Shown piece by piece: positions 49,630 through 64,000 of a stretch of DNA of 64,000 bases. This DNA is from a virus, in IMG/VR virus record IMGVR_UViG_3300030098_004828, positions 62,001 through 126,000 of that record; one strand, 5' to 3'. The first letter of the stretch is position 1. Each line of letters opens with the position of its first letter. Position numbers and translations under genes: made by a program. Under the pieces are notes generated by a model. It was not told the DNA's origin. It searched no databases and saw only the letters and a program-made list of their open reading frames with translations.

Positions 49630-50070
49630 TTAAACTCCAGTACTTCCTAAACCTCCAGATCCTCTATCAGTATCTTCAAGAAATTCAACGCTTTTAAATT
49701 TCATTTGCTCACATGGAGCAAATACAATTTGTGCAATTCTATCTCCTTTTAATACACTATAATGAGATTTTCCAAGATTTATTAGTATAATTTTTATTTC
49801 TCCTCTATAATCTGAATCAATTGTTCCAGGAGAGTTTAAAACTATAATCTGTTTTTTGGCAGCAAGACCACTGCGTGATCTTATTTGCCCTTCATACCCT
49901 TTAGGTATTTCCATAAATAATCCTGTACCAACAACAACACTGCTTCCTTTTTTAATTACAGCATCTTCATTAGCCCTAAGATCCATACCTGCTGAATTTG
50001 CAGTTTCATACCTAGGATCAGGATTATTGGATTTATTTATTAATTTTATTTTAGATTTAAATATATTCAT
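49630..50070 (-). CDS. dut: dUTP diphosphatase
   Basis: The product hydrolyses dUTP to dUMP and keeps uracil out of phage DNA. All five trimeric-dUTPase motifs are visible: AGMDLRA (1), RSRSGLA (2), GTIDSDYRGEIKIIL (3), GDRIAQIVFAP (4) and DRGSGGLGSTG (5, the Gly-rich tail that closes over the site). The start is set at 50070 (MNIFKSKIKL) because it overlaps the preceding stop as ATGA; a longer frame from 50088 adds only MYRRRT. The 146-residue size is normal for the family. It pairs functionally with the ribonucleotide reductase in dNTP supply. Confidence 0.95.
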   Translation of the reverse strand: MNIFKSKIKLINKSNNPDPRYETANSAGMDLRANEDAVIKKGSSVVVGTGLFMEIPKGYEGQIRSRSGLAAKKQIIVLNSPGTIDSDYRGEIKIILINLGKSHYSVLKGDRIAQIVFAPCEQMKFKSVEFLEDTDRGSGGLGSTGV

Positions 50071-50249
50071 AGTTCTTCGCCTATACATTTTTTCATTAGG
50101 TTTGCTAGCTTGCTTTCAATAAGTTCAACTATACTTACTAATGAGGTTAAAACAAATAATGTTGCCCAGAACATTATAACTAGTATAAGTAGTATAATAC
50201 CACATAAAGTTCTACCGCAATTTAATAATAATTTTGATATTTTTTTCAT
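50067..50249 (-). CDS. Small membrane protein
   Basis: The 60-residue product has one or two membrane segments (CGIILLILVIMFWATLFVLTSLVSIVELI) with a basic start (MKKISKLLLNCGRTL). Its start overlaps the previous gene by 4 nt and its stop overlaps the dUTPase start by 4 nt, so it is translationally coupled at both ends. No family is recognised; a phage inner-membrane modifier is possible. Confidence 0.65.
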   Translation of the reverse strand: MKKISKLLLNCGRTLCGIILLILVIMFWATLFVLTSLVSIVELIESKLANLMKKCIGEEL

Positions 50250-51112
50250 TTAAAGTATTTTATTTTGTTCCAAGGTATGGAATTTTTGTGACATTTTACA
50301 AAATCTTCCATCCATTGTCTTTTATATTCTGTTCTATATACTATATTGTTTTTATCATACTCTTCATAATCTTCTTCTTGTAATTCTGGCACCCAAAGTT
50401 CTGTTTCTGCGTCAAAATTATTTAATAAATTATGATGATGTCTTCTATTATTATGTGTTAAAAACTCACAACCTGCATGAAGACTTTTTTCTGATATTAC
50501 ATGATCATTAATTAAAGCAAATAATTCTTCATAATCATCTAACCATCCATCATAAATTATAATAGGACTATAGTTTATACGAACATCATAATCTGCTTTT
50601 ATAAATTTTTCTAAAGATTGTATTCTTTCTAATATTGTTGATGTTTCTGGTTCATGTATTATTCTTTTTGATTCAGGCATTAAGTTGAATGTTATTCTGA
50701 TTTTTTGGTCTGGTTTATAGTCTAAAAGCTTTTCATTTACATATCTTGTTGAAAATGAAGCCATTATATCATTGTGATTTTTAAAAAAATTAAATATTCT
50801 TTTCCATTCATGATGTTCAAGATGAAACGCAAAGTCTTCATAATGTCCAATATCATATACTATATACTTATCATGAGCAGAATTTGGTTTTATTATTTTA
50901 GATTTTTCAAATATTACGTGATTGTTTATTTCTGTTAAAATCTGGTTAGTGTTTTTTGCAAGAGATAAACCTGTTGGTTTATTTCTTTTTGCACTCATAT
51001 AAGTACAATTATATAAACACCCTAAACCAAAAGAGGGAGATATATAATCTGAAGAACTACCATCTGGTAATATCTTCAGATTATTTCTAATATCTCTTGT
51101 GATTAATGTCAT
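50246..51112 (-). CDS. Spore-photoproduct-lyase-like radical SAM protein with altered cluster motif
   Basis: The 288-residue product matches the spore photoproduct lyase-like family: SDYISPSFGLGC near the start, YDIGHYEDFAFHLEHHEW, ASFSTRYVNEKLL, IRITFNLMPES, and INYSPIIIYDGWLDDYEELF. Normal members hold a 4Fe-4S cluster by C-x3-C-x2-C (CLYNCSYC). Here the third Cys is Met: C32-LYN-C36-TY-M39. The rest of the fold looks intact, with no frameshift. It may be an inactive or repurposed relative, may use another ligand, or reflect a sequencing variant. It lies in the leftward arm, overlapping its neighbours by 4 nt. A DNA-repair role is known for the family, not shown here. Confidence 0.75.
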   Translation of the reverse strand: MTLITRDIRNNLKILPDGSSSDYISPSFGLGCLYNCTYMSAKRNKPTGLSLAKNTNQILTEINNHVIFEKSKIIKPNSAHDKYIVYDIGHYEDFAFHLEHHEWKRIFNFFKNHNDIMASFSTRYVNEKLLDYKPDQKIRITFNLMPESKRIIHEPETSTILERIQSLEKFIKADYDVRINYSPIIIYDGWLDDYEELFALINDHVISEKSLHAGCEFLTHNNRRHHHNLLNNFDAETELWVPELQEEDYEEYDKNNIVYRTEYKRQWMEDFVKCHKNSIPWNKIKYFK

Positions 51113-52005
51113 ATTTTGAATTCCTCAAATGTATCATACTCTTGAGCTTCCATATCAGCATCAAAATCTGATCCTTTAATAGCATGACTCCATACTCCTG
51201 CAGATCCAGATCCATATATTCCATCAGTTACATGCCCGTTGCCATTTTTATCTATCCAATTTTTATCCATTTGATGTAAACCAGATTGACTTAATAGTTC
51301 TGCAGTCATAAACTCATGAAATTTAACTTGATCACTCATCCATGTTCTTGGGTGAGATTTCTTAAAAGCGTGTGTAACATGATTATAAAATGTCCAAGCA
51401 TTATTAAGATCAGCATTATAATTATATGATGGATCTTTCATTTCTGCTTTAATAATAGAAACTTGTGATGCATCAATAATTTCTTCATCTAAAAATAGTC
51501 TGCCCACTAATTCAGCTTGACTTTTCTTAGGTAAGAATAGTTTTCTCATTTGATTTTTATCCTGAATTAATTTGGTATAATACTTATTAGCTGACTTAAT
51601 TTGTGAACTTATCTGAGTATGAATATCATGATCTGCTTTACCTGTATGTTTTCTAGCATAGTTTGCCATGTCTCCACATAACATACCGTTACTGCATACA
51701 TTTACGAAAGCTCCTACAGCACACTGAAAACGTGTACTTTTATCATAAGAGTTAGTCCAAGCAAACATCATACCCATTTCTTCATCTTCATTTGAAGCAA
51801 GGTGATATACTCCTTGTGCAACTTTAGCATTCATATTTGCTCTGTAAAGTTCTTTTGTGATTATAAAACCACTTTTGTTTAATAGAGTTTTAGTTTTCTC
51901 TATAACATCTTTATGAGGAATAACTGTGTAAGTTTTTCCATGATTAGGTAGTGGAGCTGCCACTAAAAAATCTTTTGTAGTAGTTGTTGGTCTTGTGTAT
52001 CCCAT
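51109..52005 (-). CDS. DUF932-like phage/plasmid protein
   Basis: The 298-residue product has the DUF932 pattern: STRFQCAVGAFVNVCSNGMLCGD followed by a helix-rich C-terminal half with NNAWTFYNHVTHAFKKSHPRTW. Proteins of this family are widespread in phages and plasmids; the function is not settled. The start at 52005 follows a leader with a hairpin (52026-52068) and a TATATTTG element (52076-52083), which makes it the first gene of a unit with its own promoter. It overlaps the next gene by 4 nt. Confidence 0.8.
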   Translation of the reverse strand: MGYTRPTTTTKDFLVAAPLPNHGKTYTVIPHKDVIEKTKTLLNKSGFIITKELYRANMNAKVAQGVYHLASNEDEEMGMMFAWTNSYDKSTRFQCAVGAFVNVCSNGMLCGDMANYARKHTGKADHDIHTQISSQIKSANKYYTKLIQDKNQMRKLFLPKKSQAELVGRLFLDEEIIDASQVSIIKAEMKDPSYNYNADLNNAWTFYNHVTHAFKKSHPRTWMSDQVKFHEFMTAELLSQSGLHQMDKNWIDKNGNGHVTDGIYGSGSAGVWSHAIKGSDFDADMEAQEYDTFEEFKI

Positions 52006-52025
52006 TTTTAATTAGTTTTAATTTG

Positions 52026-52068
52026 CCAGAGGGGAGCCATGCACGAACGAAATCCTTGACTCCCTTGG
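52026..52068 (-). promoter_or_regulatory. Structured leader hairpin before the DUF932-like gene
   Basis: CCA and GGGGAG on the left arm pair with CTCCCT and TGG on the right arm (about 9 bp with a 2-nt bulge), enclosing a 23-nt loop. The GC-rich stem stands out in AT-rich DNA. It lies 20 nt before the ATG, after the promoter-like element, so it would be in the 5' leader. There is no T-run, so this is more likely a regulatory or stabilising hairpin than a terminator. Confidence 0.5.
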
Positions 52069-52075
52069 ACTTATG

Positions 52076-52083
52076 CAAATATA
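52076..52083 (-). promoter_or_regulatory. Bacteroidota-type -7 element
   Basis: On the minus strand TATATTTG matches TAnnTTTG, with a TTG about 19 nt upstream at the place of the -33 element. It lies about 70 nt before the DUF932-like start and directly after the polymerase stop. Confidence 0.55.
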
Positions 52084-52093
52084 ATAATAAAAC

Positions 52094-53998
52094 TTATTCA
52101 AACAATAATAATTGATTGTTTTTTACACCAATTATATTATTTATTTCTTTCTCAATTGCATTTAAATAATATTTCTCATTAATGTCATAGTCTGACCATT
52201 TTTTATTTTCTATCTTATTCATTACAGTTTGCACCCATTGGCCTGCTTCTAGTTGTATTTCTCTTTTATCATTTTTATTAATTTTTACTATTTTACAACC
52301 TTTGTTTGAAATGTAATATCTATTTATTTTTTGTAATTTATCTTTTGTTGCTATTCCTTTATTAATACATAATCCATATTGTTCCCATGCACCTTTAGAT
52401 TTACCTCCTATACAATAATCAAGAATATTTCTATTATGTTTTATTGTATGTTCTGGTAAAGTTCCATCAACAAAATAAGCGTACAGTGCTTTTGGAATGA
52501 TCAGTTTAGACTTGTTCTTATGAAGAGCTAATCCTTCAAATTCAAATCTACCTTTACATTTAGCTTTACCATTGGTATCAACAGCTATATAGTTATTGAC
52601 ATCAGCTAATACCAGTTTACTATACTGATCATGTTCAAGATTAAGACCGGTTATTTCCTCCCATTCTTTACATACTTCCATATATTGAGATATGTATTCT
52701 TTAGGGATTATAGTCTCAACACCATCAGTATTTTGCAATAAAGCAACAGCTTCTGGTATTCTAGTCATAATCATTTCATATAGCATCATTAATGTAAGTT
52801 GACCATTAACAGTAATAAACATAGTAAACTGCGGATCATATAGAAAAGAGTTTTTATCATTACTCAACCCGTAAGTTGAATTTAAGATAATTTTATACAC
52901 ATAGTTCATTGGATCACTTTTTGGTATCTTCTTTCTTTCATCAAAGAACCATTGATATAATTCACAAAACTTTTCTTTAGGTATATGAGCCGGTGCATAT
53001 TTATTAACAATAGCTAAATTAGGATAGAAGCTAGTAACATCTGATGACATTATAACCTTTTCATCATTAGATTCATAAACTCCAGCTTTAGTAGCACCAT
53101 GGGCACCACCTAATCCAAAATGAGTTTTAACTCCTTTATATGTAACAAAAGATTTAAACCCTCCTTTAGTATAATTAGGATTTACTTCAACCGTTTTAAA
53201 CTTTTCTAATAAAGTTATAAATTCAGGTGTCTCAAACTTAATATAATCTAATATAAGATCTTTAACTTTAATTACATTTCTAAAAGTCCTTAACTTCTTA
53301 ATTTCATATTTTGGCATATCTAGTTCTTTACTAAGATAATAAGCAAATAATTCTTTACTTATCCTTGGTTCAGATGCACTAAATAAATTAATATTATATT
53401 TCTCAGTTAAGTTCTTTCTCAATGCAATCAAAGGTTTACATCTATTAAAAATCTCTTTAGTTGCTTCTACATCATTAATACAGTATTCAATAACTAGATT
53501 TAACTGATCTTGTGTATTTATTTCTGTTTCATGATGTATGGGCATATCTAAGATGTTATCCCAATCCATAGTGTATTCTATCCACTTAAGACTAGATCTC
53601 TTAGCCATGTTATCCCAATGGTTTAATTTAAATACATCTATTTGTTTAATAGACATATGCCATTCGGGAAACTCTTGAAACTCATGTTTATTGCTTTTAT
53701 CTATACATGATTGGGCATAATGATATATTTCTTCAGCTATTTCTTCACCAGACATTAACTTTAAATTCTCATAGTCTTTTATTATATAGTGAGTGATCTG
53801 TGCATCAAATGCTAATCCATTATAGGATATATGCCACTCTTTATTTTCAATATTTTCTTTTAGAAACTCTATAAATGACTCAAAATCATTACGCTGTTCA
53901 CATACCGCAAAGATTTTAGTTTCCTCAGTTTTGTAATGTTTAAATACACCTACAAAACAATTCACTAGAGTTTCATAATCCATTATCCAGTGATTCAT
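52094..53998 (-). CDS. Family-B DNA polymerase with 3'-5' exonuclease
   Basis: The replicative polymerase is 634 residues when started at 53998 (MNHWIMDYET). The longer frame from 54040 begins inside a terminator hairpin, so it is rejected. Exonuclease motifs: D7-x-E9 (Exo I), N60...D65 in SYNGLAFDA (Exo II) and Y172-x3-D176 in YCINDVEAT (Exo III). Polymerase motifs: A with D320 in DVTSFYP, B with K369 in KIILNSTYG, and C with N423-T-D425 in LQNTDG. In motif C the first Asp of the usual DTD is Asn, a variant I have seen in phage B polymerases. No terminal-protein region is obvious. It probably works with the TOPRIM primase at 62506. Confidence 0.92.
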   Translation of the reverse strand: MNHWIMDYETLVNCFVGVFKHYKTEETKIFAVCEQRNDFESFIEFLKENIENKEWHISYNGLAFDAQITHYIIKDYENLKLMSGEEIAEEIYHYAQSCIDKSNKHEFQEFPEWHMSIKQIDVFKLNHWDNMAKRSSLKWIEYTMDWDNILDMPIHHETEINTQDQLNLVIEYCINDVEATKEIFNRCKPLIALRKNLTEKYNINLFSASEPRISKELFAYYLSKELDMPKYEIKKLRTFRNVIKVKDLILDYIKFETPEFITLLEKFKTVEVNPNYTKGGFKSFVTYKGVKTHFGLGGAHGATKAGVYESNDEKVIMSSDVTSFYPNLAIVNKYAPAHIPKEKFCELYQWFFDERKKIPKSDPMNYVYKIILNSTYGLSNDKNSFLYDPQFTMFITVNGQLTLMMLYEMIMTRIPEAVALLQNTDGVETIIPKEYISQYMEVCKEWEEITGLNLEHDQYSKLVLADVNNYIAVDTNGKAKCKGRFEFEGLALHKNKSKLIIPKALYAYFVDGTLPEHTIKHNRNILDYCIGGKSKGAWEQYGLCINKGIATKDKLQKINRYYISNKGCKIVKINKNDKREIQLEAGQWVQTVMNKIENKKWSDYDINEKYYLNAIEKEINNIIGVKNNQLLLFE

Positions 53999-54020
53999 AT
54001 TATTAAATTTTATGTAAAAA

Positions 54021-54054
54021 AATAGGGAGCCGTCACACAAACCGGCTCCCTATT
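54021..54054 (-). terminator. Strong intrinsic terminator or attenuator before the polymerase gene
   Basis: AATAGGGAGCCG pairs with CGGCTCCCTATT (12 bp, 10-nt loop). On the minus strand the stem is followed by a T-run, so it terminates leftward transcription from the gene at 54109. It ends about 22 nt before the polymerase ATG with no clear promoter in between, so read-through would control polymerase level. Confidence 0.85.
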
Positions 54055-54055
54055 A

Positions 54056-54077
54056 GAATTAAGTATTAACTTAATTC
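54056..54077. repeat. Perfect 9-bp inverted repeat next to the terminator
   Basis: GAATTAAGT-ATTA-ACTTAATTC forms a 9-bp stem with a 4-nt loop, immediately upstream (minus sense) of the strong terminator. It is AT-only apart from one G/C pair at each end of the stem. It may be a second hairpin of a tandem terminator or a protein-binding palindrome. Confidence 0.6.
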
Positions 54078-54108
54078 ATCATGAAAACAATAGTCATTTA
54101 ATGGCTGA

Positions 54109-54612
54109 CTAAACCTTATCTATTGGTTTAATAATAGGAACAGGTTCTGATACTATATCAGGTTGTGTAAATATTTTCTTATTATTTTCAGGAGTAATCT
54201 CCTCACCAGTTTCATTATCACAGTCTTCACAACCGTTATAATTTTGGTCTATATATTGCATATAGTCAAAAATTTCTGCGTTTATAGCAAATAATTCAAC
54301 TAATTGCTGAATGTCTTTTATATCACCTATATAAACTTCTCCATATGTATCAACCAATCTTCTTTCTTCTTTGATTGATTCACCACCTGGACGAGGTTTT
54401 TTAGTTGGTACATGATCTCCATTATCATCTAATTTAGGAACCATATGGTAACTTTGCTTTACTTTATCTAAGATAACTGCAAGCATTTGAGATTCTGGAT
54501 CAAATATACACTCAACATAAGGACATTCCCTTCCTATTGGTATAAGCTTAAATGTTTTTTTCATTCTCCATACTGTTGATATTAACAGCATGTTTTTAAA
54601 GTCTTTCTTCAT
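54109..54612 (-). CDS. Hypothetical early protein
   Basis: The 167-residue product contains MKKTFKLIPIGRECPYVECIFDPESQMLAVILDK (split here by position 17-50), a Pro-rich section TKKPRPGGES, and an acidic Cys-containing part (NYNGCEDCDNETGEE), then a Pro/Ile tail. It is beta-rich at the start and helical in the middle. A promoter-like TATATTTG lies 25 nt upstream of the first ATG, which supports that start; an internal ATG at residue 17 is the alternative. No family is recognised. It ends before the tandem hairpins that precede the polymerase gene. Confidence 0.65.
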   Translation of the reverse strand: MKKDFKNMLLISTVWRMKKTFKLIPIGRECPYVECIFDPESQMLAVILDKVKQSYHMVPKLDDNGDHVPTKKPRPGGESIKEERRLVDTYGEVYIGDIKDIQQLVELFAINAEIFDYMQYIDQNYNGCEDCDNETGEEITPENNKKIFTQPDIVSEPVPIIKPIDKV

Positions 54613-54636
54613 GATTAAAATATTTTAAAATATTAG

Positions 54637-54644
54637 CAAATATA
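54637..54644 (-). promoter_or_regulatory. Bacteroidota-type -7 element
   Basis: On the minus strand TATATTTG matches TAnnTTTG, 25 nt upstream of the ATG at 54612, in a 41-nt gap. The -33 element is weak (TGTTTA at about the right place). Confidence 0.5.
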
Positions 54645-54653
54645 CTATTTTTT

Positions 54654-55256
54654 TTAATATATAAACATTTTTTCATGAATATATTCTCTTTTAAATTCTT
54701 CAAGTCTTTTATTAGGTTTATCACAAAGCTCACCTACTTCTTCTAATAACTCTATTGGTATGTTTAATAATTCTGAATATTCCTCATAAAAATGATGGGG
54801 ATATAAATAACTTTCTACATATTGAGATATAGTTCCTATAGGTCCAAAAAAATTCATTATTCTTTTTTTTGCAAGTTCAGACATTTTAGAATAGTGTCCC
54901 TTTCTAAAATGTATCATGTCTAATTCAAATGCAGGCATATCAAATAATACTAAATCAAATTCAATACTATTATGAATAAAAGGAAATGATTTATAATAAA
55001 ACTTATTATCTTTAATTATTTCATCAAGAAATGAAAGATACATTGATTTACTTTTTTGATCATCAGGACGTAAATATAAGCAACAAAATTTGCTCCCATT
55101 TTCACCATCACATTTTTCTTCTGGAAGTATAGTATCTTTATACGTCCAAGATGTGTATGTTTGAATAGGAACAAATCTCATTCCTTTTTTAATTCCTAAG
55201 AGTGGATATAAGAAAACTTTACTTTTCTGAAAATATTCTTTATAAATTTCTTTCAT
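54654..55256 (-). CDS. Hypothetical early protein
   Basis: The 200-residue product has RFVPIQTYTSWTYKDTILPEEKCDGENGSKFCCLYLRP at its start, two Cys pairs, and a long helical second half with HHFYEEYSELLNIPIELLEEVGELCDKP. It overlaps the nuclease gene upstream by 4 nt and ends the primase-to-nuclease operon. No catalytic motif or family is recognised. Confidence 0.6.
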   Translation of the reverse strand: MKEIYKEYFQKSKVFLYPLLGIKKGMRFVPIQTYTSWTYKDTILPEEKCDGENGSKFCCLYLRPDDQKSKSMYLSFLDEIIKDNKFYYKSFPFIHNSIEFDLVLFDMPAFELDMIHFRKGHYSKMSELAKKRIMNFFGPIGTISQYVESYLYPHHFYEEYSELLNIPIELLEEVGELCDKPNKRLEEFKREYIHEKMFIY

Positions 55257-56260
55257 AATGTAACATTACCGTTAGCAAAATCATATGGCAGATCATATTT
55301 TCTTTCACTGTAATGATAATTTGCTTCTTGTAATGTATCCATTAATCCTTGTATCCATTTTAATTGTGTTTCTTCTGACACAGGAAAGACATAGACCTGA
55401 TCATATTTGTCTATAACCACAAATTTAAAAATAATTTTGTAATCTTGTTGATTTTCATCAACATTTTTCATTACAAGTAGTGAATATACAGCTGCTTGCA
55501 GCCAATAATTATAAAAATCCACTGTTTCAGCAAAATTTTCTAATGGTTTTGCAGTTGTTTTTAAATCTATTATGGTTATTGTCTTTGTTTTATCATCAAT
55601 TATATATTTATCAATGATACCTTTTAGTCCGAATTTAAACTTACTTAATCCACATTCTAATTTCTTTTCATTATATACTTTAATATTATCTAAATCCCAA
55701 TCAGTGCCTTCTTGCATTAATAGAGACATAACATCTTTATTAGCTTTTATTAATTCAACTCTTTCAGTTGCTTTAAGCAACATTTCATTATCTATAATAT
55801 CTTTTTTCTGATCTTGACACAAAAAATACAGATATTCTGCATTTTCAGGTGTATTAATCTTATCTATTCTTTTTTGATCATCTTTAAACGATTGATATAA
55901 ATTATTTTCTTTTAATGCTTCTAATATTTGTTCATCTAATTCATCTAATTTAATAGTAGTACCTATAGCTTGATGTGGATCAAAAAACATATTACTAATG
56001 CTTTTTAATACTTTACGAACATTGTCTGATGGTACTTTATTTGGAACAATAGAAAACTCATCATGGAGTTTCTCAGGCTGTAATAACATTAAATGAAGTA
56101 ATTTACCTTCAATTAAATGTTTATCAGTCTTAAGTTCCCTTTCTTTAAGAATATAATCTCTATAAAAGAGTTTTGGTGAAAATAACAATCTGTTTAAGGA
56201 GGAGTAGCTAAACTTAAACTCCTCCTTATAAAACAGATCTTCTTTGACTTTATCTATCAT
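55253..56260 (-). CDS. RecE-like PD-(D/E)XK exonuclease
   Basis: The 335-residue product has the phage recombination nuclease layout: an N-terminal G-x3-H box (IEGKLLHLML, G52-H56), then GLKGIIDKYII with D217, and IIDLKTT with D232-x-K234. A following helix carries the Q-x3-Y motif (WLQAAVYSLLV). This matches the RecE/exodeoxyribonuclease VIII-like PD-(D/E)XK group. Likely role: 5'-3' digestion of dsDNA ends during recombination-dependent replication. No RecT/Bet partner is visible in the window. It overlaps both neighbours by 4 nt. Confidence 0.82.
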   Translation of the reverse strand: MIDKVKEDLFYKEEFKFSYSSLNRLLFSPKLFYRDYILKERELKTDKHLIEGKLLHLMLLQPEKLHDEFSIVPNKVPSDNVRKVLKSISNMFFDPHQAIGTTIKLDELDEQILEALKENNLYQSFKDDQKRIDKINTPENAEYLYFLCQDQKKDIIDNEMLLKATERVELIKANKDVMSLLMQEGTDWDLDNIKVYNEKKLECGLSKFKFGLKGIIDKYIIDDKTKTITIIDLKTTAKPLENFAETVDFYNYWLQAAVYSLLVMKNVDENQQDYKIIFKFVVIDKYDQVYVFPVSEETQLKWIQGLMDTLQEANYHYSERKYDLPYDFANGNVTL

Positions 56261-57519
56261 AATCTATGTGATTCAGTGTGCATATCAACCATTGCTTCTA
56301 GGTTATCAAGTACAACTTGTTCAGTTTTAACCCTTGCTTGAAGTTCCGCTTTTAATTGGATACTATCAGGACTAATACTAAATACATTTTTACTATCAAC
56401 ACCCATCTGAGATGATAATACATCATCATACATCTTTTGAGCAACTTCTTTCCAAGCAACTTCAGTTAATGCATCATCTTTAATTAGTTGCTCAATTAAG
56501 TAATTATAACTATGACACCAGTTCCAACCAGATAATTGTATGTACCTATCAAACTTCTTCCTTACGGATTTAAAGTTAACAGTATTCCATACAGATGAAT
56601 CTTTCATAGAATCACTTAAGAATGAAAATAATAGTGCTAAATATGTATGAGACTTTTGAATATTACAATTAGCAATGATGCTCAAAGCTAAGTTCATATT
56701 CTCTTTGTCCCTAGTACCTTCCCAACCACAACCACTTTCAGTCTTTTCCCAACCAAGCATAGTTTTAAGTTGTATATACATTTCTTCATTTAATACTTCA
56801 GAATCTTCTGTAGCAAGTTCATTCATATTAGTGTCCCAAACAAGTTTAGACATATTAACTTGTATATCATTCCACTGATTTAATGATTCAATATAATAAT
56901 GATACTTACTATTACCTCCTACACTTCTTATTGATTCACACATTTTAGAATATCTATCAAGATTATTAACACCATCATAATAATATGTACTAAACCATTC
57001 ACATTCATATACAATATGAGCATCTGCAGGTATTTTACTTAGCATGTTTACAATTTCATCATAAAGATCATCTTCAAACTGATCTTTATAAACTCCTGCC
57101 CAAGAAAGCACATCTGCAGGATCTGTTTCTGCAAGCCATCTAGTACAAAATAATCCATCAAAGTACTTTTCAGATACAATACCATAGTCTGCCTGGTGAA
57201 AATCTCTTTTCAATTTAAGATCAAACTTTTCTTGTAGTATCTTTACCTTATCTCTTGATAAACTAAGTCTAGGAAATCTATATAGTGAATTAGCATTCTT
57301 AAGATCATCAGATGTAATAGTTTCAATACCACTCATTATTTTTTTAATTTCTGCATTATTAACTCTATTAGAATATCTACCACTATTATCACCTGATTCT
57401 ATATGATGACCTAATTGTCTTACTTTAAAACTACCATTTTGCAATTTTAAAGTATTATTTATTTTGTCACATTTACCCGGGTCAATATCAATTAACCATA
57501 ATTGTTTTAAATCTGTCAT
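56257..57519 (-). CDS. Unknown AAA+-linked protein, related to the next upstream gene
   Basis: The 420-residue product is not a known family to me. It aligns by eye with the 57516-58574 product. Both have a segment of the form P-R-L...L...f.l.....DF.-ADY/F-V-(RLSLSRDKVKILQEKFDL, KRDFHQADYGIV), then an L-N/D-E-x-M/L helix, a helix with K-x2-H-x-L/Y and a C-terminal helical region. Trp is frequent. No catalytic motif is visible. With the AAA+ ATPase (58576) and VWA protein (59840) it forms a four-gene block with 4-nt overlaps or 1-nt gaps. It may be a client or adaptor of the ATPase, by context only. Confidence 0.65.
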   Translation of the reverse strand: MTDLKQLWLIDIDPGKCDKINNTLKLQNGSFKVRQLGHHIESGDNSGRYSNRVNNAEIKKIMSGIETITSDDLKNANSLYRFPRLSLSRDKVKILQEKFDLKLKRDFHQADYGIVSEKYFDGLFCTRWLAETDPADVLSWAGVYKDQFEDDLYDEIVNMLSKIPADAHIVYECEWFSTYYYDGVNNLDRYSKMCESIRSVGGNSKYHYYIESLNQWNDIQVNMSKLVWDTNMNELATEDSEVLNEEMYIQLKTMLGWEKTESGCGWEGTRDKENMNLALSIIANCNIQKSHTYLALLFSFLSDSMKDSSVWNTVNFKSVRKKFDRYIQLSGWNWCHSYNYLIEQLIKDDALTEVAWKEVAQKMYDDVLSSQMGVDSKNVFSISPDSIQLKAELQARVKTEQVVLDNLEAMVDMHTESHRL

Positions 57520-58574
57520 TTTTTAACTTTTAAATATTTCCTATACTCTTCTTTAACTGCCACTTTAAAGGTATATAGTTCTCTATTATTAATACTAATT
57601 TCTTTACGAACAATAGGTTCAAGGTATCTAAATGATTCTGAATCAAGACATTCTTGTTCTTCTAGTTCTTTAATCATGGATTCAGCATTATGATGAGAAT
57701 AACTATTAAAATTAGATTTATCCATCCAATAATTCATATCTTTATCTCTATTAAACCTATACATATAACCACTAACTTCAGTTGCTAACTTCCATATAAG
57801 ATGTTTCTTCTTTCTGTAATCAATAGCAGGCATCATCTTTTTAACTAATTCTTTTTCTTCATGACTACCATCCCTAATCATTCTAACAAGATCATCTAGT
57901 AGTTGTTCATCAAGAACTGTTTTATTAGCTGACTCATTTAAACATGTCTCAGCATATATAACAGGTATTTGTTCATGTCTAATACGATATGCAATTTGTA
58001 TCGCTAATGGTGTAAACACATAAGCTTCATATAGATCTTCATCATAATCAATACTATTTCTACTATATGTCTCTGCCATCTTATCATCAAATACAATTTG
58101 AATATTAGGATCTACATTTGGTTCACTTTGTTTATCAGCTAAGTCTACACTTACACTAATATCCATAGCTTCATAGTTCATAGTTTTAAATAACATACTA
58201 TTAGTTCTAATTGACTCACCATCACTATGATATTGACCATATTCATTATGAGTTACAAAAAAATCAGCTTTATTAAAATCATTTGTTACAGTAATACTAT
58301 GCTCTCTTAATGCTTCCTTTAGTCTAGGTAATGATACTGGACATCCTGGAAGTATAAAAGCTTTTTTATATTGAGATAGATCTACTATATCTATCTCATC
58401 ATTAAAATATTTTTGAAATACTCTATAAGTGTTATTTAGATCACAAAATACGGCTTGACCCATATCCCAACTTTGTCTAGATAAAGCAACCTGATATACA
58501 GGCTGCCCATCTAAACCAAAGTCTTCTAATTGTTCCTTAATAGCACCCAAAGTACAATTATAAACTTTACTCAT
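57516..58574 (-). CDS. Unknown AAA+-linked protein, related to the next downstream gene
   Basis: The 352-residue product shares architecture with the 56257-57519 product: LPRLKEALREHSITVTNDFN followed by KADFFVT in the first half, and helical MNYWMDKSNFNSY and SFRYLEPIVRKEI sections in the second half. The first segment has a faint BRCT-like look (hydrophobic, then kADffVt), which is only a suggestion. It overlaps the next gene by 4 nt and follows the AAA+ ATPase by 1 nt. A duplicated adaptor or substrate of the ATPase is the simplest reading. Confidence 0.65.
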   Translation of the reverse strand: MSKVYNCTLGAIKEQLEDFGLDGQPVYQVALSRQSWDMGQAVFCDLNNTYRVFQKYFNDEIDIVDLSQYKKAFILPGCPVSLPRLKEALREHSITVTNDFNKADFFVTHNEYGQYHSDGESIRTNSMLFKTMNYEAMDISVSVDLADKQSEPNVDPNIQIVFDDKMAETYSRNSIDYDEDLYEAYVFTPLAIQIAYRIRHEQIPVIYAETCLNESANKTVLDEQLLDDLVRMIRDGSHEEKELVKKMMPAIDYRKKKHLIWKLATEVSGYMYRFNRDKDMNYWMDKSNFNSYSHHNAESMIKELEEQECLDSESFRYLEPIVRKEISINNRELYTFKVAVKEEYRKYLKVKK

Positions 58575-58575
58575 C

Positions 58576-59838
58576 TTATTTCATTGTCATTTTGATGATT
58601 TCTGGATTCATCATCATTTTATTAAACTTAGTTTTATTACCATTGAAAATAGTTCTAACAATAAGATACTTCAGATCATTAGCGAATACATCTTTAGTGC
58701 ATAATGCTATCAATCTTTCATTTATCTTTGGTGTTACAGTATTTTCATTAGCATAAACAACAGAATAATTAGCCAACCTTGTTGCAAGAGTAGATGCAAT
58801 ATCTGCTCTATATGTGTCACCTTTTCCTAGAACACTATTTAATTCTCCAATAATGTAATCTTGGTTTTCATGTGTCAACATATCTTTAGGTGTGACCAGC
58901 TTGTCCAGCTTGTTGTTAATAAACGTAGTAAACATAGAAGCAAATGTGTCCCCAACTGAACCTTCACCAATCATTTGGATCATACTCAAGTCATCTTCAA
59001 ACTTTTCAAAACTTGAAATAGAATTGAAGAATGCCGTAATGGATCTTGCATTTGTTTCTTTATTTACTAATTCAGGATGCAGTAACATGAAGTTAATACA
59101 ACGAGTGTCAATATGCTGCTCTTCAGCCCATCTTGCCCAAACGTTTACATCAAACTTTAAGTTAGCAGTAATATATCTAGTCTTTTGTGCTGAATCAACA
59201 CTATTAACCATATAATCACCATTATCTGGATTACTAGTTAATATTATATGCCAATCAGCAGGTAAAGACCATGATATATATTGCTGTCTGTCAACTAACT
59301 CCATTACAGCTTGAATAAATCTTACATCTGCACGGTTCCAGTCATCAAGAAGTAATATACCTCCTTTCTTTTTATCAGCAATCCATTCTGGTGCACAATA
59401 AGACATTCTATTCTTACCTGTCATCTTCCATCCTTTTCTCAAATACTCTTCAACTGCAAGTTCATCTACCCATTGACCAACTTTCTTAGTCATAGTAGAG
59501 TCTGCAACTTGTGCAGATGCTGCAGCTCTTTGAGCTACTGTATAAGAAAGATCATCAATTTTTTTAGTAATTTGTTTCTCTTTATACATTTGAAATTGTC
59601 TTACAGGAAATCCTACTAAATCTCCTAATTCTTCTATCTGAGCTAAATTTAACTTAACAAAATCTAAATCATTTTGTTTAGCTAAATCCAATACAGCTGA
59701 AGTTTTACCAATTCCTGATTCACCAACTACTTCCACAGCAACTGGATTTTTTCCTTGTTCTTGTAAGAATCTATTATTCTTAATTATATGGTTTACAAAA
59801 CCGTTTAGTTCATCTATATTTAAATTTACTTGTGCCAT
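58576..59838 (-). CDS. MoxR-type AAA+ ATPase
   Basis: The 420-residue product has Walker A GESGIGKTS (G39-T46), Walker B ILLLDD (161-166), a sensor-like TSNPDNGDY (about 201-209) and an HELP-type loop region between. This fits the MoxR/CobS-like AAA+ group, whose members work with VWA-domain partners to remodel or load metal into target proteins. The partner is encoded 1 nt upstream (59840). Similar ATPase/VWA pairs occur in other large phages. The target is unknown; the two related proteins directly downstream are candidates. Confidence 0.85.
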   Translation of the reverse strand: MAQVNLNIDELNGFVNHIIKNNRFLQEQGKNPVAVEVVGESGIGKTSAVLDLAKQNDLDFVKLNLAQIEELGDLVGFPVRQFQMYKEKQITKKIDDLSYTVAQRAAASAQVADSTMTKKVGQWVDELAVEEYLRKGWKMTGKNRMSYCAPEWIADKKKGGILLLDDWNRADVRFIQAVMELVDRQQYISWSLPADWHIILTSNPDNGDYMVNSVDSAQKTRYITANLKFDVNVWARWAEEQHIDTRCINFMLLHPELVNKETNARSITAFFNSISSFEKFEDDLSMIQMIGEGSVGDTFASMFTTFINNKLDKLVTPKDMLTHENQDYIIGELNSVLGKGDTYRADIASTLATRLANYSVVYANENTVTPKINERLIALCTKDVFANDLKYLIVRTIFNGNKTKFNKMMMNPEIIKMTMK

Positions 59839-59839
59839 T

Positions 59840-61009
59840 TTATTGTGCGTTTAATTGTATTGTTAATCCCGGTAAATGATCAGTCCAATTAGATCTTGCA
59901 CTAAGAACCCATAATGTGTTCTTTGGACAATCTTCTGGAGCTGGTGCTTCACCATCTGTTAAATATATAAGGGCAGTATATCTACCTCTCATTTCATTAA
60001 AATGGTCAATAACCGGTTGGAAGCATGTACCTCCTCTACCTCTTATTTCCCAATCCTTTCTTTTGTTAAAAGGGGATATATCAGTTATATTTGTATCACA
60101 TTGTGCTACAGTTATTTGATGTCCCGTTTTTTGAACATGATGCATTTCACTCATGAAATGTTTTAGTTCTTCCGTGTTTACAGATCCTGAAGTATCAACA
60201 CCAATCAAAATATGATTTTTGTGTTTTATTTTAAGACCTGGATTATCTGTATATCTTTTGTTGAATTTTCTTCTCAACTTTTTTGTAAAGGTAAACACAG
60301 AATTACCTACAAATCTCCTTAAATAACCTTTCCAATCAAATGATGGAGGAATTATAGTTTGAAGTCTTTTAATCAACTCTGCTAACTCACCTGGTATAGT
60401 ACCACGTCTTTTAACAGTTTGATCTGCAGTTTCTTTAAGTTGATGCTCAATTTGTTTTTGCACTAGCTTTTTCTCTGCTTCTGTAAGTTCTTCAAACTCT
60501 TTCCAAGTTTTATGACAATATTGACTATCACCATCCATTTGGTTAAGTATAGATTCAAGTGAAGGACAAGGATTATTCTTACACTCTTGCTCTAATAAAT
60601 CATAATACTTTTTAGTACCGGCTTTCTTTGGTAATTTTAACTCAGGAAAACTATCTAAAGTTAATCCACCATCAGGAAGCATACTTCTATCTATATATTG
60701 ATTTATTTCCAAATCTGCTGCTATATTAAATAGTTTATGATTTGCATATAGATCTCTCATCATAAGATGTCCAAATGAAACGTGCAGTAGTTCATGTTTA
60801 AGTAGACCTATCTGGTGTTCATCTGGTAACTTCATAAAGAAATCCGGATTAATAGATAATTGTATACCTATACCATTTTTACTGACACCCGCTGTTGGGA
60901 CATCATTTCTTATTTTCTTGTTTAGTCCAATAAGAAAGAGCCCATAAAAGGGCTCTCTTAATATTAGTGACTTACAAGCTCTTGCTAATTTGTCTTGTAT
61001 ATCATTCAT
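59840..61009 (-). CDS. VWA-like protein with metallopeptidase-like domain (DUF2201 type)
   Basis: The 389-residue product has an N-terminal putative metallopeptidase domain with HELLH (H72-H76) and AADLEINQYI (possible third ligand E101). After a Lys-rich middle comes a VWA-like domain with the MIDAS start VDTSGSVN (D272, S274, S276) and GRGGTCFQPVIDHFNE. This arrangement matches the DUF2201 family found beside MoxR ATPases. It should act as the partner of the AAA+ ATPase encoded directly downstream. It lies 2 nt after the gene at 61012. Confidence 0.85.
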   Translation of the reverse strand: MNDIQDKLARACKSLILREPFYGLFLIGLNKKIRNDVPTAGVSKNGIGIQLSINPDFFMKLPDEHQIGLLKHELLHVSFGHLMMRDLYANHKLFNIAADLEINQYIDRSMLPDGGLTLDSFPELKLPKKAGTKKYYDLLEQECKNNPCPSLESILNQMDGDSQYCHKTWKEFEELTEAEKKLVQKQIEHQLKETADQTVKRRGTIPGELAELIKRLQTIIPPSFDWKGYLRRFVGNSVFTFTKKLRRKFNKRYTDNPGLKIKHKNHILIGVDTSGSVNTEELKHFMSEMHHVQKTGHQITVAQCDTNITDISPFNKRKDWEIRGRGGTCFQPVIDHFNEMRGRYTALIYLTDGEAPAPEDCPKNTLWVLSARSNWTDHLPGLTIQLNAQ

Positions 61010-61011
61010 TA

Positions 61012-61437
61012 TTATAATTTTTCATTCATTATATTATCTATTTCACGTTGCTCTTCTGGACTAACTGGATCTATTGGTTTTGTATGTTCCCAATCAAGTT
61101 CAATTTTAACATTTTTAATAAACTTCCAAGTATCTTTAAAAACAGGAAGCATTTGCTCATGTACTTCAAACTCTATAATTTCCTGTTCATGTCCTATACC
61201 TAAAGTAGAATCAAGATCTTTAAACATTTCACCCCATTCTTTAATAGCGTAGTAATCTAACTTAAATTTTTCACAAAAAGCCTGTCTTTTACCAAACATT
61301 AAAGATTTAGCAAACATTATTTTTGTAATTGAAGTTATTTCCTTCATATTTTTTATATTCTCACAAGCCACTTCATAATCTTCTTCAGATCCGTGGAGGA
61401 GTTCTCTTAATTTTTTATATTCTTCTAAACTAATCAT
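61012..61437 (-). CDS. Hypothetical protein
   Basis: The 141-residue product is mainly helical and acidic (EEYKKLRELLHGSEEDYEVACENIKNM; KEWGEMFKDLDSTLGIGHEQEIIEF). No membrane segment or motif. It overlaps the DUF6915-like gene by 8 nt and precedes the VWA gene by 2 nt. Not recognised; a small accessory of the replication operon. Confidence 0.6.
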   Translation of the reverse strand: MISLEEYKKLRELLHGSEEDYEVACENIKNMKEITSITKIMFAKSLMFGKRQAFCEKFKLDYYAIKEWGEMFKDLDSTLGIGHEQEIIEFEVHEQMLPVFKDTWKFIKNVKIELDWEHTKPIDPVSPEEQREIDNIMNEKL

Positions 61438-61777
61438 TGATTTTCATTGTTTTAATCATCCACAAGGGTAGTTTTTTCTTGTGCATATTATCTAACCATT
61501 CTTTTGCAGAGGGAATGTAATTATTACAATCCTCTCTTACATGCTGCTCTGCAACATATCTTGTATAAACAGGTTTATCATCTGAATTTGTAAATACTGG
61601 CCCGAATTTTCTTTCACATTCAAATATACCTTCACTGTGATGACGAAACATTCTGTGTAAGTGATTGCCCACCCAACTTTTTGTTGCATCTAACCAATTA
61701 TGTATATGTATGTAATCATCAGGACACCCACCAAACTTCTTTACAGAAGACTTGGCATGAATATTTGGATGTGCCAT
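61430..61777 (-). CDS. DUF6915-like protein
   Basis: The 115-residue product fits the DUF6915 pattern: MAHPNIHAKSSVKKFGGCPDDY, HIHNWLDATKSWVGNHLHRMFRHHSEGIFECE, and the end EQHVREDCNNYIPSAKEWLDN. His/Asp/Glu residues are well conserved in this family and could bind metal, but the function is unknown to me. Its start shares one base with the stop of the DUF6878-like gene. Confidence 0.8.
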   Translation of the reverse strand: MAHPNIHAKSSVKKFGGCPDDYIHIHNWLDATKSWVGNHLHRMFRHHSEGIFECERKFGPVFTNSDDKPVYTRYVAEQHVREDCNNYIPSAKEWLDNMHKKKLPLWMIKTMKIND

Positions 61778-62145
61778 TAAATAAATTTATCTTCGGTATT
61801 AAAGTCACAATCATAATAATAATCTTCTGTAATACGTTGTGTGTGATGAATTTTAACATCCCATGGATCTTTTGTACAATCAATTATCATTTGACCATGA
61901 CCACCATCATTATTAATCCAATCCCATTCTACATTATCACTGACCATATTATATAGTAAATCATCCCATGCATGCTCTACTTCACCGGTCATATTTACAT
62001 TAATCTTTTTTCCATCAATATCTTCAAATCTAACTTCATCTATACATCCATCATCACCACCACCATTATATTCTACTTCTATATTTGCTATATTGTGATC
62101 TTTAATCACTTGAACTGCTACATTTCTTTTTAGTTTTTTTTCCAT
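61777..62145 (-). CDS. DUF6878-like protein
   Basis: The 122-residue product shows the DUF6878 features: VEYNGGGDDGCIDEVRFEDIDG, a helix with HAWDDLLYNMV, and WDWINNDGGHGQMIIDCTKD. The family is small, acidic and of unknown function, found in plasmids and phages. Its start overlaps the end of the RusA-like gene by 44 nt, an unusually long overlap for this operon. It is followed directly by the DUF6915-like gene. Confidence 0.75.
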   Translation of the reverse strand: MEKKLKRNVAVQVIKDHNIANIEVEYNGGGDDGCIDEVRFEDIDGKKINVNMTGEVEHAWDDLLYNMVSDNVEWDWINNDGGHGQMIIDCTKDPWDVKIHHTQRITEDYYYDCDFNTEDKFI

Positions 62146-62509
62146 TTTTTATTAATTTAATTTCTACACCTGGATTTTCCTTATCATATTCATAAGGTTC
62201 AAATACAGGTATAATGTTTTCACAATTATCATCATCAATCCAATTATGTTTAACCATATCATCTTGCACTGTCTGTGCAGGATTAATATAGTCAAACTTA
62301 TGTTTGGATCCTCTGATGAATTTAAATGATATTTTTACCGGTAATTCTAGTTTAGCCAATTGCTTCCTAAAGCCCTTTCTAAACTGATCATAGTATTTAG
62401 CTGTTTCTTTTCTATACTTAGTTGTTGCTTTACTGGACACGAAATATCTTCCTGTCCATCTTCTTCCATTTTTACTACTTGGTACGTTACCTGGTATAAA
62501 CCATTTCAT
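62102..62509 (-). CDS. RusA-like Holliday junction resolvase
   Basis: The 135-residue product has the RusA layout: WFIPGNVPSSKNGRR near the start, a basic helix, then SKHKFDYINPAQTVQDDMVKHNW followed by IDDDNCENIIPVF, with the Asp residues that hold catalytic metal in the family. It should cut four-way DNA junctions during recombination or before packaging. The tail is Lys- and Ser-rich (KKTKKKCSSSSD). It overlaps the primase gene by 4 nt and the DUF6878-like gene by 44 nt. Confidence 0.75.
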   Translation of the reverse strand: MKWFIPGNVPSSKNGRRWTGRYFVSSKATTKYRKETAKYYDQFRKGFRKQLAKLELPVKISFKFIRGSKHKFDYINPAQTVQDDMVKHNWIDDDNCENIIPVFEPYEYDKENPGVEIKLIKNGKKTKKKCSSSSD

Positions 62510-63486
62510 AGAATACTTTTAAGTTTAACTTTAATTTCTTTATGAGCATCAGCAAAACCTTTCTCTTTTACAAGATCAGCAATGTCTTTGCTACTATCTA
62601 ACCATGTGCCTTTTATGTCATATAACTGTTCATATTTATTAACAGCATTATGTCCAGCAACATCATTATCAAATAAAGTTACAACTTTTTTATACTTTTT
62701 CTTAAGATTTTCAATAATATACGGTTTTATTACAGTATTTTCTGAGTCAGGTGCAATAACTTCTAAATTGTATCCAAATTGTTTTAGACACATTGCATCT
62801 TTCAAAGAAGAACATATAACAAGATAAGGTTGATTATACTCTAATTGATCTATACCTTGAAGATGAGGTTTAACTTTTATGAATTTAAACTTCTTATTTT
62901 TTGGTTGATAAATCTTATAGATGTTACCATCTTTATCAAAATAACCATATATATAAGTTTTAGCTAATAATGCACCAATAGTTCTTTGATCTATTGATTC
63001 TTCACTTTCTTTTACCATACGGTAAAAATTAAGTGGTTGAACATTATATTTATTAAGAATATCTTCACCAATATTAAAACTTAACCAAAATTCTCTGTCC
63101 CAATCAGACCATCTTCTTGGATTTACAGATTCTACTTTAAATTTTGCTTCTGGTTTTATAGTTGATTGTTTATATTCTCCTTTTTCTGTAATAAACTTGT
63201 TATAATCTTGACCTATTTTAAATACAGCTTTAGAAAAGTCTATTTTAAATAGTTCTTTAACTAAATCAATTTTATTACCACCTTTACCTGTTGAAAAATC
63301 TTTAAACTTATATTGACCTTTATCCGCAAATATCCACATGCTTGGAGTTCTTTCTGTAGGATGAAATACAGATTTAATCTGCACATTCTGTCCATTTAGT
63401 CTTTCTGGTAGATCCAGATAGAACTCAAACACCCATGTACTTGGAACTTTAGATCCATCTAATATGAGATTCTTTGTACTTATCAT
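62506..63486 (-). CDS. TOPRIM primase-like protein with altered first acidic motif
   Basis: The 326-residue product has an N-terminal part like the zinc-finger region of phage primases but without Cys ligands (FHPTERTPSMWIFADKGQYKFKDF...GGNKIDLVKELF). A TOPRIM domain follows (YLVICSSLKDAMCLKQFGYN; VVTLFDNDVAGHNA with D273 and D275). The usual TOPRIM Glu (EG..D) reads SSLKD at S226, a variant I recall from Bacteroidota phage proteins, where a later Glu (APDSE) may substitute. It should make primers for the polymerase at 52094. The ATG lies 7 nt after a hairpin terminator, so expression may depend on read-through. Confidence 0.8.
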   Translation of the reverse strand: MISTKNLILDGSKVPSTWVFEFYLDLPERLNGQNVQIKSVFHPTERTPSMWIFADKGQYKFKDFSTGKGGNKIDLVKELFKIDFSKAVFKIGQDYNKFITEKGEYKQSTIKPEAKFKVESVNPRRWSDWDREFWLSFNIGEDILNKYNVQPLNFYRMVKESEESIDQRTIGALLAKTYIYGYFDKDGNIYKIYQPKNKKFKFIKVKPHLQGIDQLEYNQPYLVICSSLKDAMCLKQFGYNLEVIAPDSENTVIKPYIIENLKKKYKKVVTLFDNDVAGHNAVNKYEQLYDIKGTWLDSSKDIADLVKEKGFADAHKEIKVKLKSIL

Positions 63487-63492
63487 AATCTT

Positions 63493-63530
63493 AAAAAATA
63501 TAGGGACAAGTAAGTGCCCCTATATATTAA
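63493..63530 (-). terminator. Intrinsic terminator or attenuator directly before the primase gene
   Basis: ATATAGGG pairs with CCCTATAT (8 bp, 12-nt loop). On the minus strand the stem is followed by a run of five T. It ends about 7 nt before the primase ATG, leaving no room for a promoter, so it is either the end of the upstream gene with an undetected promoter inside it or an attenuator. Confidence 0.75.
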
Positions 63531-63537
63531 AAACTAT

Positions 63538-63620
63538 CTATTAACTGCTATTATGCGGTCCGTATTAAAAACCGTTGCAGGACAGTTAATAGTCCTCTTA
63601 CTAGGTATATTATCCTGCAA
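63538..63620. other. Dense crossing inverted repeats, possible pseudoknotted leader RNA or origin
   Basis: Four pairings overlap. CTATTAACTG (63538) with CAGTTAATAG (63583) is a perfect 10-bp pair. CGGT (63556) pairs with ACCG (63571) inside it. TTGCAGGA (63575) pairs with TCCTGCAA (63613). AGGAC (63579) pairs with GTCCT (63592). The first and third pairs cross, which would give a pseudoknot in RNA. It lies between the fragment at 63623 and the primase terminator. A riboswitch-like leader or a replication origin are both possible. Confidence 0.55.
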
Positions 63621-63622
63621 AA

Positions 63623-64000
63623 TTATAATTCAAAATCAGAACCTGATCCTGAATCTGCTTTAAATGGTATTTCTTCAGTAGTAGATGAAGAATCTTTCTT
63701 AACTAAAGCTTTAACATGTACTCCACGGTCAAACTTAAGTAATCTAGAATTTTCTTTATCTAATGCTTCCATAGCAATACCATCTTTAGATATACGTGGT
63801 AAATAAAGATCATTATTTATATAACCTTCTTTATTTTCCCACTCACGACCGCCAATACACATGTTAATAAGTTTAGAACCACCCATTAATCTATTACATT
63901 CAGTCATAAATTCTTCTATAGTTTGTGCTTCAATAGAATCTAATCCATCTCTCATATCTAATGTTTCAGCTAAAGTAATCATATGCTTTAAGATTTCTTG
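63623..64000 (-). CDS. Protein truncated by right edge, possibly ssDNA-binding
   Basis: The visible frame runs to the right edge with no stop (QEILKH before the internal Met at 63982), so the start is outside the window. The sequence has LMGGSKLINMCIGGREWENK, GYINNDLYLPRISKDG, a basic section (FDRGVHVKALVKKD) and a short acidic tail (SGSGSDFEL). Upstream position to the primase and the acidic tail would suit a single-stranded DNA-binding protein, but this is a weak inference and no family is recognised with certainty. Confidence 0.6.
   Translation of the reverse strand, partial: QEILKHMITLAETLDMRDGLDSIEAQTIEEFMTECNRLMGGSKLINMCIGGREWENKEGYINNDLYLPRISKDGIAMEALDKENSRLLKFDRGVHVKALVKKDSSSTTEEIPFKADSGSGSDFEL

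Follow-up and report, generated by a model that had tools for sequence, protein, structure and literature searches.

A MoxR ATPase and metallopeptidase-VWA pair with two paralogous partner proteins in the replication arm of a predicted crAss-like phage

Pairs made of a MoxR-type AAA+ ATPase and a metallopeptidase that bears a von Willebrand factor A (VWA) domain have been described in phages, and MoxR-vWA pairs also in bacteria. In phage N4, gene 24 (function unassigned) and gene 25 (vWFA domain) are core genes found on middle transcripts (PMC4193335). In the group 2.2 jumbo phages, a MoxR and metallopeptidase-vWA pair was reported for which the authors propose a part in virion assembly and peptidolytic processing (PMC7824862). 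In bacteria, MoxR-vWA pairs occur in ternary conflict systems with VMAP (PMC7159879). This work deals with such a pair and with the two proteins encoded after it, named here B and A, in a 64,000-bp stretch of DNA (the window; positions 62001–126000 of the 245,646-bp virus record IMGVR_UViG_3300030098_004828) from an uncultured phage that appears to be crAss-like. A preliminary description of the window had put the four genes forward as the best candidate in the replication arm for an undescribed system; the MoxR/peptidase-VWA pair is already known, and the new part is its paralogous, lineage-specific partners.

The four genes form a block at 56257–61009, where the preliminary description had placed them, all on the minus strand and thus opposite to the giant plus-strand open reading frames (ORFs) of the window. 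The VWA gene (59840..61009; 389 aa) is followed by the MoxR-type ATPase gene (58576..59838; 420 aa), by the gene for protein B (57516..58574; 352 aa; no family assigned), the constant neighbour of the pair, and by that for protein A (56257..57519; 420 aa), the distant paralogue of B. The VWA–MoxR and MoxR–B junctions measure 1 bp each and the B–A junction is a 4-bp overlap. A further 4-bp overlap joins A to a PDDEXK nuclease gene on the same strand (55253..56260; 335 aa; PF12705, 2.6e-13). All four proteins of the block are under purifying selection, with ratios of non-synonymous to synonymous substitution rates (dN/dS) of 0.03–0.09 for MoxR, 0.11–0.16 for VWA, 0.26–0.34 for B and 0.39–0.51 for A, the quickest evolving of the four.

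The reading of the first two genes as a MoxR-type ATPase with a VWA/HELLH partner is borne out. The VWA protein combines an N-terminal DUF2201_N domain, similar to HExxH metallopeptidases (PF13203, 2.4e-20), with a C-terminal VWA domain of the DUF2201 type (PF09967, 1.1e-16). In an alignment of nine sequences that includes Moorella and Pseudomonas phages, H72, E73, H76 and H81 are invariant, the HELLH motif lying at 60782..60796 on the minus strand (residues 72–76), and so are D272, S274, S276, T328 and D352 of the metal-ion-dependent adhesion site (MIDAS), whose DxSxS motif lies at 60182..60196 on the same strand (residues 272–276). The protein also matches phrog_1314 (6.1e-70), a family labelled HNH endonuclease. 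That label does not fit, because the Pfam match and the motifs contradict it: judged by these, phrog_1314 proteins are DUF2201 metallopeptidase-VWA proteins. The HNH label has been copied into many phage records. The ATPase matches phrog_1297 (2.2e-32), every Pfam AAA model falling below its cut-off on the window protein, and relatives have a median identity of 81% to it. Its Walker A motif GESGIGKT (59701..59724, minus strand; residues 39–46) has G39, E40 and G42–K45 invariant among relatives; we take ILLLDD (59341..59358, minus strand; residues 161–166) to be its Walker B motif. The window thus holds what defines the phage pair, namely an AAA+ MoxR protein and a MIDAS-bearing VWA protein with a fused N-terminal metallopeptidase domain. 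A role for MoxR as substitute replicative helicase was rejected, as the phage has a DnaB-type helicase.

Relatives of the VWA protein occur in 387 phage records, the best at 31% identity, so that none is close. The N4 proteins gp24/gp25, products of Schitoviridae core genes, are likewise an AAA+ ATPase and a metallopeptidase-VWA protein, and Schitoviridae VWA proteins reach about 29% identity to that of the window while retaining HExxH and MIDAS. In Pseudomonas phage PEV2 (gp33/gp35), the pair likewise lies upstream of a nuclease-like gene and a DNA polymerase, but the order differs (ATPase, another gene, VWA) and, unlike in the window, no A or B was found at this locus or at an Acinetobacter Schitoviridae locus. 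The group 2.2 jumbo phages carry the same two proteins, and no A or B was detected by profile at the loci of the large phages K64-1 and PA5oct, whose membership in group 2.2 was not checked. The bacterial conflict systems likewise join MoxR and vWA to a third dedicated protein, there VMAP (PMC7159879); with E 0.1 as the limit, Pfam searches of 38 A and 41 B proteins brought up no family of that name. At eight other phage loci with a MoxR-VWA pair, no ORF was a credible match to the A and B profiles (lowest hhalign P 0.011 of 152). In cyanophage MinM2, DUF3150 is annotated between MoxR and VWA; no DUF3150 was found in the record of the window at E 10, but of the 14 control genomes only one was positive, and the annotated MinM2 protein itself gave no DUF3150 match in Pfam. 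The open-licence papers searched yielded nothing linking crAss-like phages to MoxR, or Crassvirales to von Willebrand domains and ATPases.

Proteins A and B had been described as belonging to no known family and resembling each other, and both points stand. Neither has a credible match in Pfam, PHROGs, NCBIfam, PADLOC or PDB sequences, and 38 A and 41 B members scanned one by one gave scattered weak matches only. Phage records, queried with the window proteins and three divergent members, held no relative of A or B, and plasmids none of B. Bacterial genomes contained B in three contigs only, from metagenome-assembled genomes (MAGs) labelled Campylobacteraceae and Pseudomonadales; one of these contigs is 114,697 bp long, near the size of this phage genome. 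The two proteins compared by BLASTP reach an E of 0.044, and hhalign gives P 0.064 with 10 close sequences each, P 1.9e-7 across 276 columns with 51 sequences each and P 7e-7 with 133 A and 140 B sequences. This profile-profile comparison, which the preliminary description had proposed, supports homology for both halves of the proteins: the N-terminal parts alone give P 7.6e-6 and the C-terminal parts 5.9e-4 (2.3e-4 with a shorter cut), against 0.42 for the reversed control. Four random halves of the alignments give P 4e-7 to 3e-6, and removal of the window's own clade leaves 6e-6. Nine control comparisons (other pairs, reversed profiles) stayed at P 0.011 or above, and the lowest P from 100 column permutations of B against A was 0.02. 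Judged from these alignments, A and B are distant paralogues, homologous along both halves. In one relative, the A profile matches once more, over part of its length (4.5e-7), upstream of the block (G012:C1:19908-20138), perhaps at a decayed duplicate.

The gene order was followed in scans that kept the best 80 of at least 555 (VWA), 358, 362 and at least 534 (MoxR) confirmed matches, in which distant relatives are under-sampled. Among the best 80 VWA relatives, 56 show the full four-gene order and the other 24 are truncated by the locus end. The VWA relatives, the best B relatives and the three MAG contigs together make up 140 distinct contigs, 115 of them with the four genes in order; of the remaining 25, the contig stops short on the 3′ side in 24, and the last, L155, starts inside MoxR. 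None of the 115 contigs has an interruption at the B–A junction (range -56 to +10 bp). Gaps above 60 bp occur between VWA and MoxR in nine of them and between MoxR and B in four, the latter corresponding to in-frame stops in MoxR (L042 and L171), an HNH-type ORF (L088) and a 116-bp gap (L178). Across 134 full loci, RusA is present at 130, primase at 129 and the PDDEXK nuclease at 119, and all 15 full loci that lack the nuclease stop no more than 677 bp past A.

A number of insertions and breaks were noted in these loci. A free-standing HNH-type endonuclease ORF (type assigned by eye) lies between MoxR and B at L088:8512-9057, and an ORF of 128–133 aa that begins with MGRYY and has no assigned family lies between VWA and MoxR in L061, L078, L111, L166, L191 and L201. 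In L155, a GIY-YIG-like ORF (264-1082; type again by eye) splits MoxR between residues 181 and 182 in a manner that resembles the insertion of a mobile intron or homing element. The lone in-frame stops of L042 (near 8128) and L171 (near 7441) fall at leucine positions of otherwise intact MoxR genes and are either sequencing errors or real. An apparently broken MoxR in the second genome copy of the window's own record was dismissed, the break being a run of N.

A wider set of 313 loci, 188 of them unique by MoxR and B protein, places the boundary of the conserved unit more closely. The four genes are present at 146 of the 188, and ten lack A despite sufficient room, nine of these having VWA-MoxR-B and one B only, its contig starting there; the others are cut by contig ends or split (L155). 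Protein B was found with VWA-MoxR in every retrieved locus with room, including the clade without A. The fixed unit is therefore VWA-MoxR-B, three genes, because at 10 of the 188 unique loci the gene after B encodes a FEN-like 5′ nuclease and not A; A and the PDDEXK nuclease make up an exchangeable cassette. The fixed four-gene order of the preliminary description thus holds for the 115 of 140 contigs that display it, the other 25 being cut by contig ends, and fails at these 10 loci. The order is conserved to this extent and the two proteins are homologous, the two points on which that description had staked its case.

At all ten loci without A, the ORF after B begins like a FEN-type nuclease, and the two that were tested match 5′-3′ exonuclease domains at 1.5e-6 to 5e-8, values below the Pfam cut-offs. 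In 127 unique loci the sequence runs on for 2.8 kb or more past B. At 121 of these, A occurs together with the PDDEXK nuclease and FEN is absent, six have FEN with neither, and none is mixed; the same split, 11 with A and nuclease vs. five with FEN, was seen in 16 records searched whole. In four of the six FEN loci, the next gene is homologous to the one that elsewhere comes after the PDDEXK nuclease. The FEN carriers form one sister clade, set apart by a single split on both the B and the MoxR trees (one change each, counted without direction).

Two further features of A and B bear on what they might do. An [LIVM]PF end, mostly DDLPF, closes 42 of 128 unique complete A proteins and 0 of 146 each of B, MoxR and VWA. 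Mapped on a tree of B with 105 rows, of which 22 bear this ending, it switches state no fewer than 10 times. Such a tail resembles the tip of bacterial single-stranded DNA-binding protein (SSB). The A members have no SSB family match, and PF00436 gave no match in the whole record at E 1, with 12 of 14 control genomes positive. The idea that A is the sole SSB candidate of the phage was rejected, as next to a Sak4-like AAA protein there is one of 240 aa whose acidic tail was read by eye as DFDL/DFEL in 79 of 80 unique pairs; Pfam gives no match for this protein, and an SSB role for it is only a guess.

The other feature is a weakly BRCT-like segment shared by A (residues 77–119; 57163..57291, minus strand) and B (residues 70–112; 58239..58367, minus strand). 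About 47 residues of each protein align in register with the first half of the BRCT domain of NAD-dependent DNA ligase, the second half not being seen. BRCT compared with the full profiles gives P 0.0023 (A) and 0.0049 (B), and with the segments alone 2.3e-4 (A) and 2.9e-3 (B), none of these values being equalled by any of 150 permutations, against 0.048–0.42 for the Response_reg and Toprim controls and 0.045–0.64 for eight other phage families. These values are optimistic, BRCT having been chosen after the sequence and one weak Pfam match had been viewed. The BRCT profile was built from 18 of 32 loci and the Response_reg and Toprim controls from 13 of 30 and 15 of 30, sequences with in-frame stops or fewer than 50 aa being dropped. 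No match passes the Pfam cut-off for BRCT: the window's A and B have none, and the best, PF00533 at 0.0083 in 1 of 41 B proteins, is compatible with chance. The likeness is a lead and does not identify the domain.

We tentatively favour, at somewhat less than even confidence, the reading in which the block encodes an ATPase machine that belongs to the replication arm of crAss-like phages, with B as its dedicated client or adaptor and A working with the nuclease; it is preferred because it fits the genomic setting best, the function itself being deduced from sequence and position. Wherever the contig allows a view, B adjoins a MoxR with intact Walker motifs and a VWA protein with intact HExxH and MIDAS residues, and the linkage makes it plausible that A and B are targets or adaptors of the machine, as the preliminary description had suggested. 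The MoxR ring, steered by the VWA subunit, would pull on or clip B, thereby loading it onto replication or recombination intermediates or clearing it from them. Protein A, of common ancestry with B, might serve the PDDEXK nuclease in a similar way at DNA ends; in the sister clade that lacks both, the FEN-like 5′ nuclease takes their place. Where A proteins bear the DDLPF-type tail, as a third of them do, it could give access to partners that read the bacterial SSB tail. A more specific version, in which A and B are BRCT-like DNA-end binders that the MoxR/peptidase-VWA pair loads, strips or clips, and in which A with the PDDEXK nuclease replaces a FEN-type 5′ nuclease, which would make this a MoxR-VWA system with DNA-processing clients, is improbable on present showing. 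Several observations weigh against the replication reading. The carriers all belong to one phage lineage, so the shared order may be plain inheritance, and the swap of A and nuclease for FEN is a single evolutionary event, which cannot prove a functional link because it is only one. The DDLPF-type tip is absent from the window's own A, and AlphaFold models built from shallow alignments (pLDDT 42 and 35) are too poor for use. Eight other phage records hold the pair with neither A nor B detectable; the two are therefore not needed for the pair as such.

The role proposed for the jumbo-phage pair points elsewhere, to a virion-assembly chaperone in which MoxR-VWA folds or clips a structural protein and B and A are assembly helpers, and in cyanophage S-TIM61 the pair does adjoin annotated structural genes and Hsp20. 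The block of the window, however, lies in the replication arm between primase/RusA and nuclease/polymerase, on the strand opposite to the giant plus-strand ORFs; the N4 homologues are middle genes (PMC4193335), and a DNA nuclease occupies the A slot of the FEN clade, all of which makes virion assembly rather unlikely. We regard as about equally doubtful that the genes have no joint function and are chance neighbours in the replication arm, co-inherited in one phage lineage. That the carriers form one lineage in which the order of the flanking genes is also well conserved would agree with this, as would the far faster evolution of A and B than of MoxR and VWA; yet the B–A junction is never broken, while nearby junctions carry insertions that include the homing-type HNH ORF and one MoxR is split by the GIY-YIG-like ORF, and VWA-MoxR-B stays intact even without A and the nuclease. 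The raised dN/dS of A and B, the variable A tails with DDLPF-type ends and the presence of MoxR-vWA pairs in bacterial conflict systems (PMC7159879) would suit a host-takeover or counter-defence module, in which A and B, part of them bearing an SSB-like tail, would be directed at proteins of the host, and MoxR-VWA would act on these targets. This reading seems quite unlikely: none of the four proteins has a meaningful PADLOC match, B is present in all carriers, unlike counter-defence genes, which are typically patchy, and the block sits among replication genes.

The replication setting noted in the preliminary description is confirmed by the flanking genes, all on the minus strand. Upstream lie a RusA-like resolvase (62102..62509; PF05866, 9.3e-5, just over the cut-off) and a DNA primase (62506..63486; phrog_12622, 6.8e-26), and downstream, beyond the PDDEXK nuclease, a family B DNA polymerase (52094..54040; phrog_1252, 1.2e-143) whose best isolate match is Cellulophaga phage phi14:2. 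An ORF at 50246-51112 matches spore photoproduct lyase (PF20903, 1.8e-19), which is unusual in a phage; some relatives (L135, L148) have a homologue of it immediately after A. Rfam gave no match over 50000-64000 of the window.

The record consists of two related genomes of about 121–125 kb, some 69–93% identical in blocks and joined at the same point in head-to-tail arrangement (position 2 corresponds to 124783, and the record end to 124690); two strains or species were probably fused during assembly. The block occurs twice in it, with VWA copies 90% identical. Searches by tblastn with phi14:2 proteins matched the portal (7e-29), the major capsid protein (1e-9), an RNA polymerase-associated protein (3e-13) and the RNA polymerase catalytic protein (6e-7), among other homologues, the terminase giving no match at 1e-3; on these portal, major capsid and RNA polymerase homologues the uncultured phage is classed as crAss-like. 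No relative of VWA, MoxR, A or B was found in the part of the phi14:2 replication region examined. A 5,791-aa ORF (window 11674-29049) may carry the virion RNA polymerase, the phi14:2 match in the second genome copy corresponding to it by offset.

The MoxR/peptidase-VWA pair is a core feature of N4-like phages and has relatives in hundreds of phage records, and the partners found here provide it with named candidate clients. If A and B do bind DNA ends, the pair would be a remodeller of replication or recombination instead of a virion chaperone.

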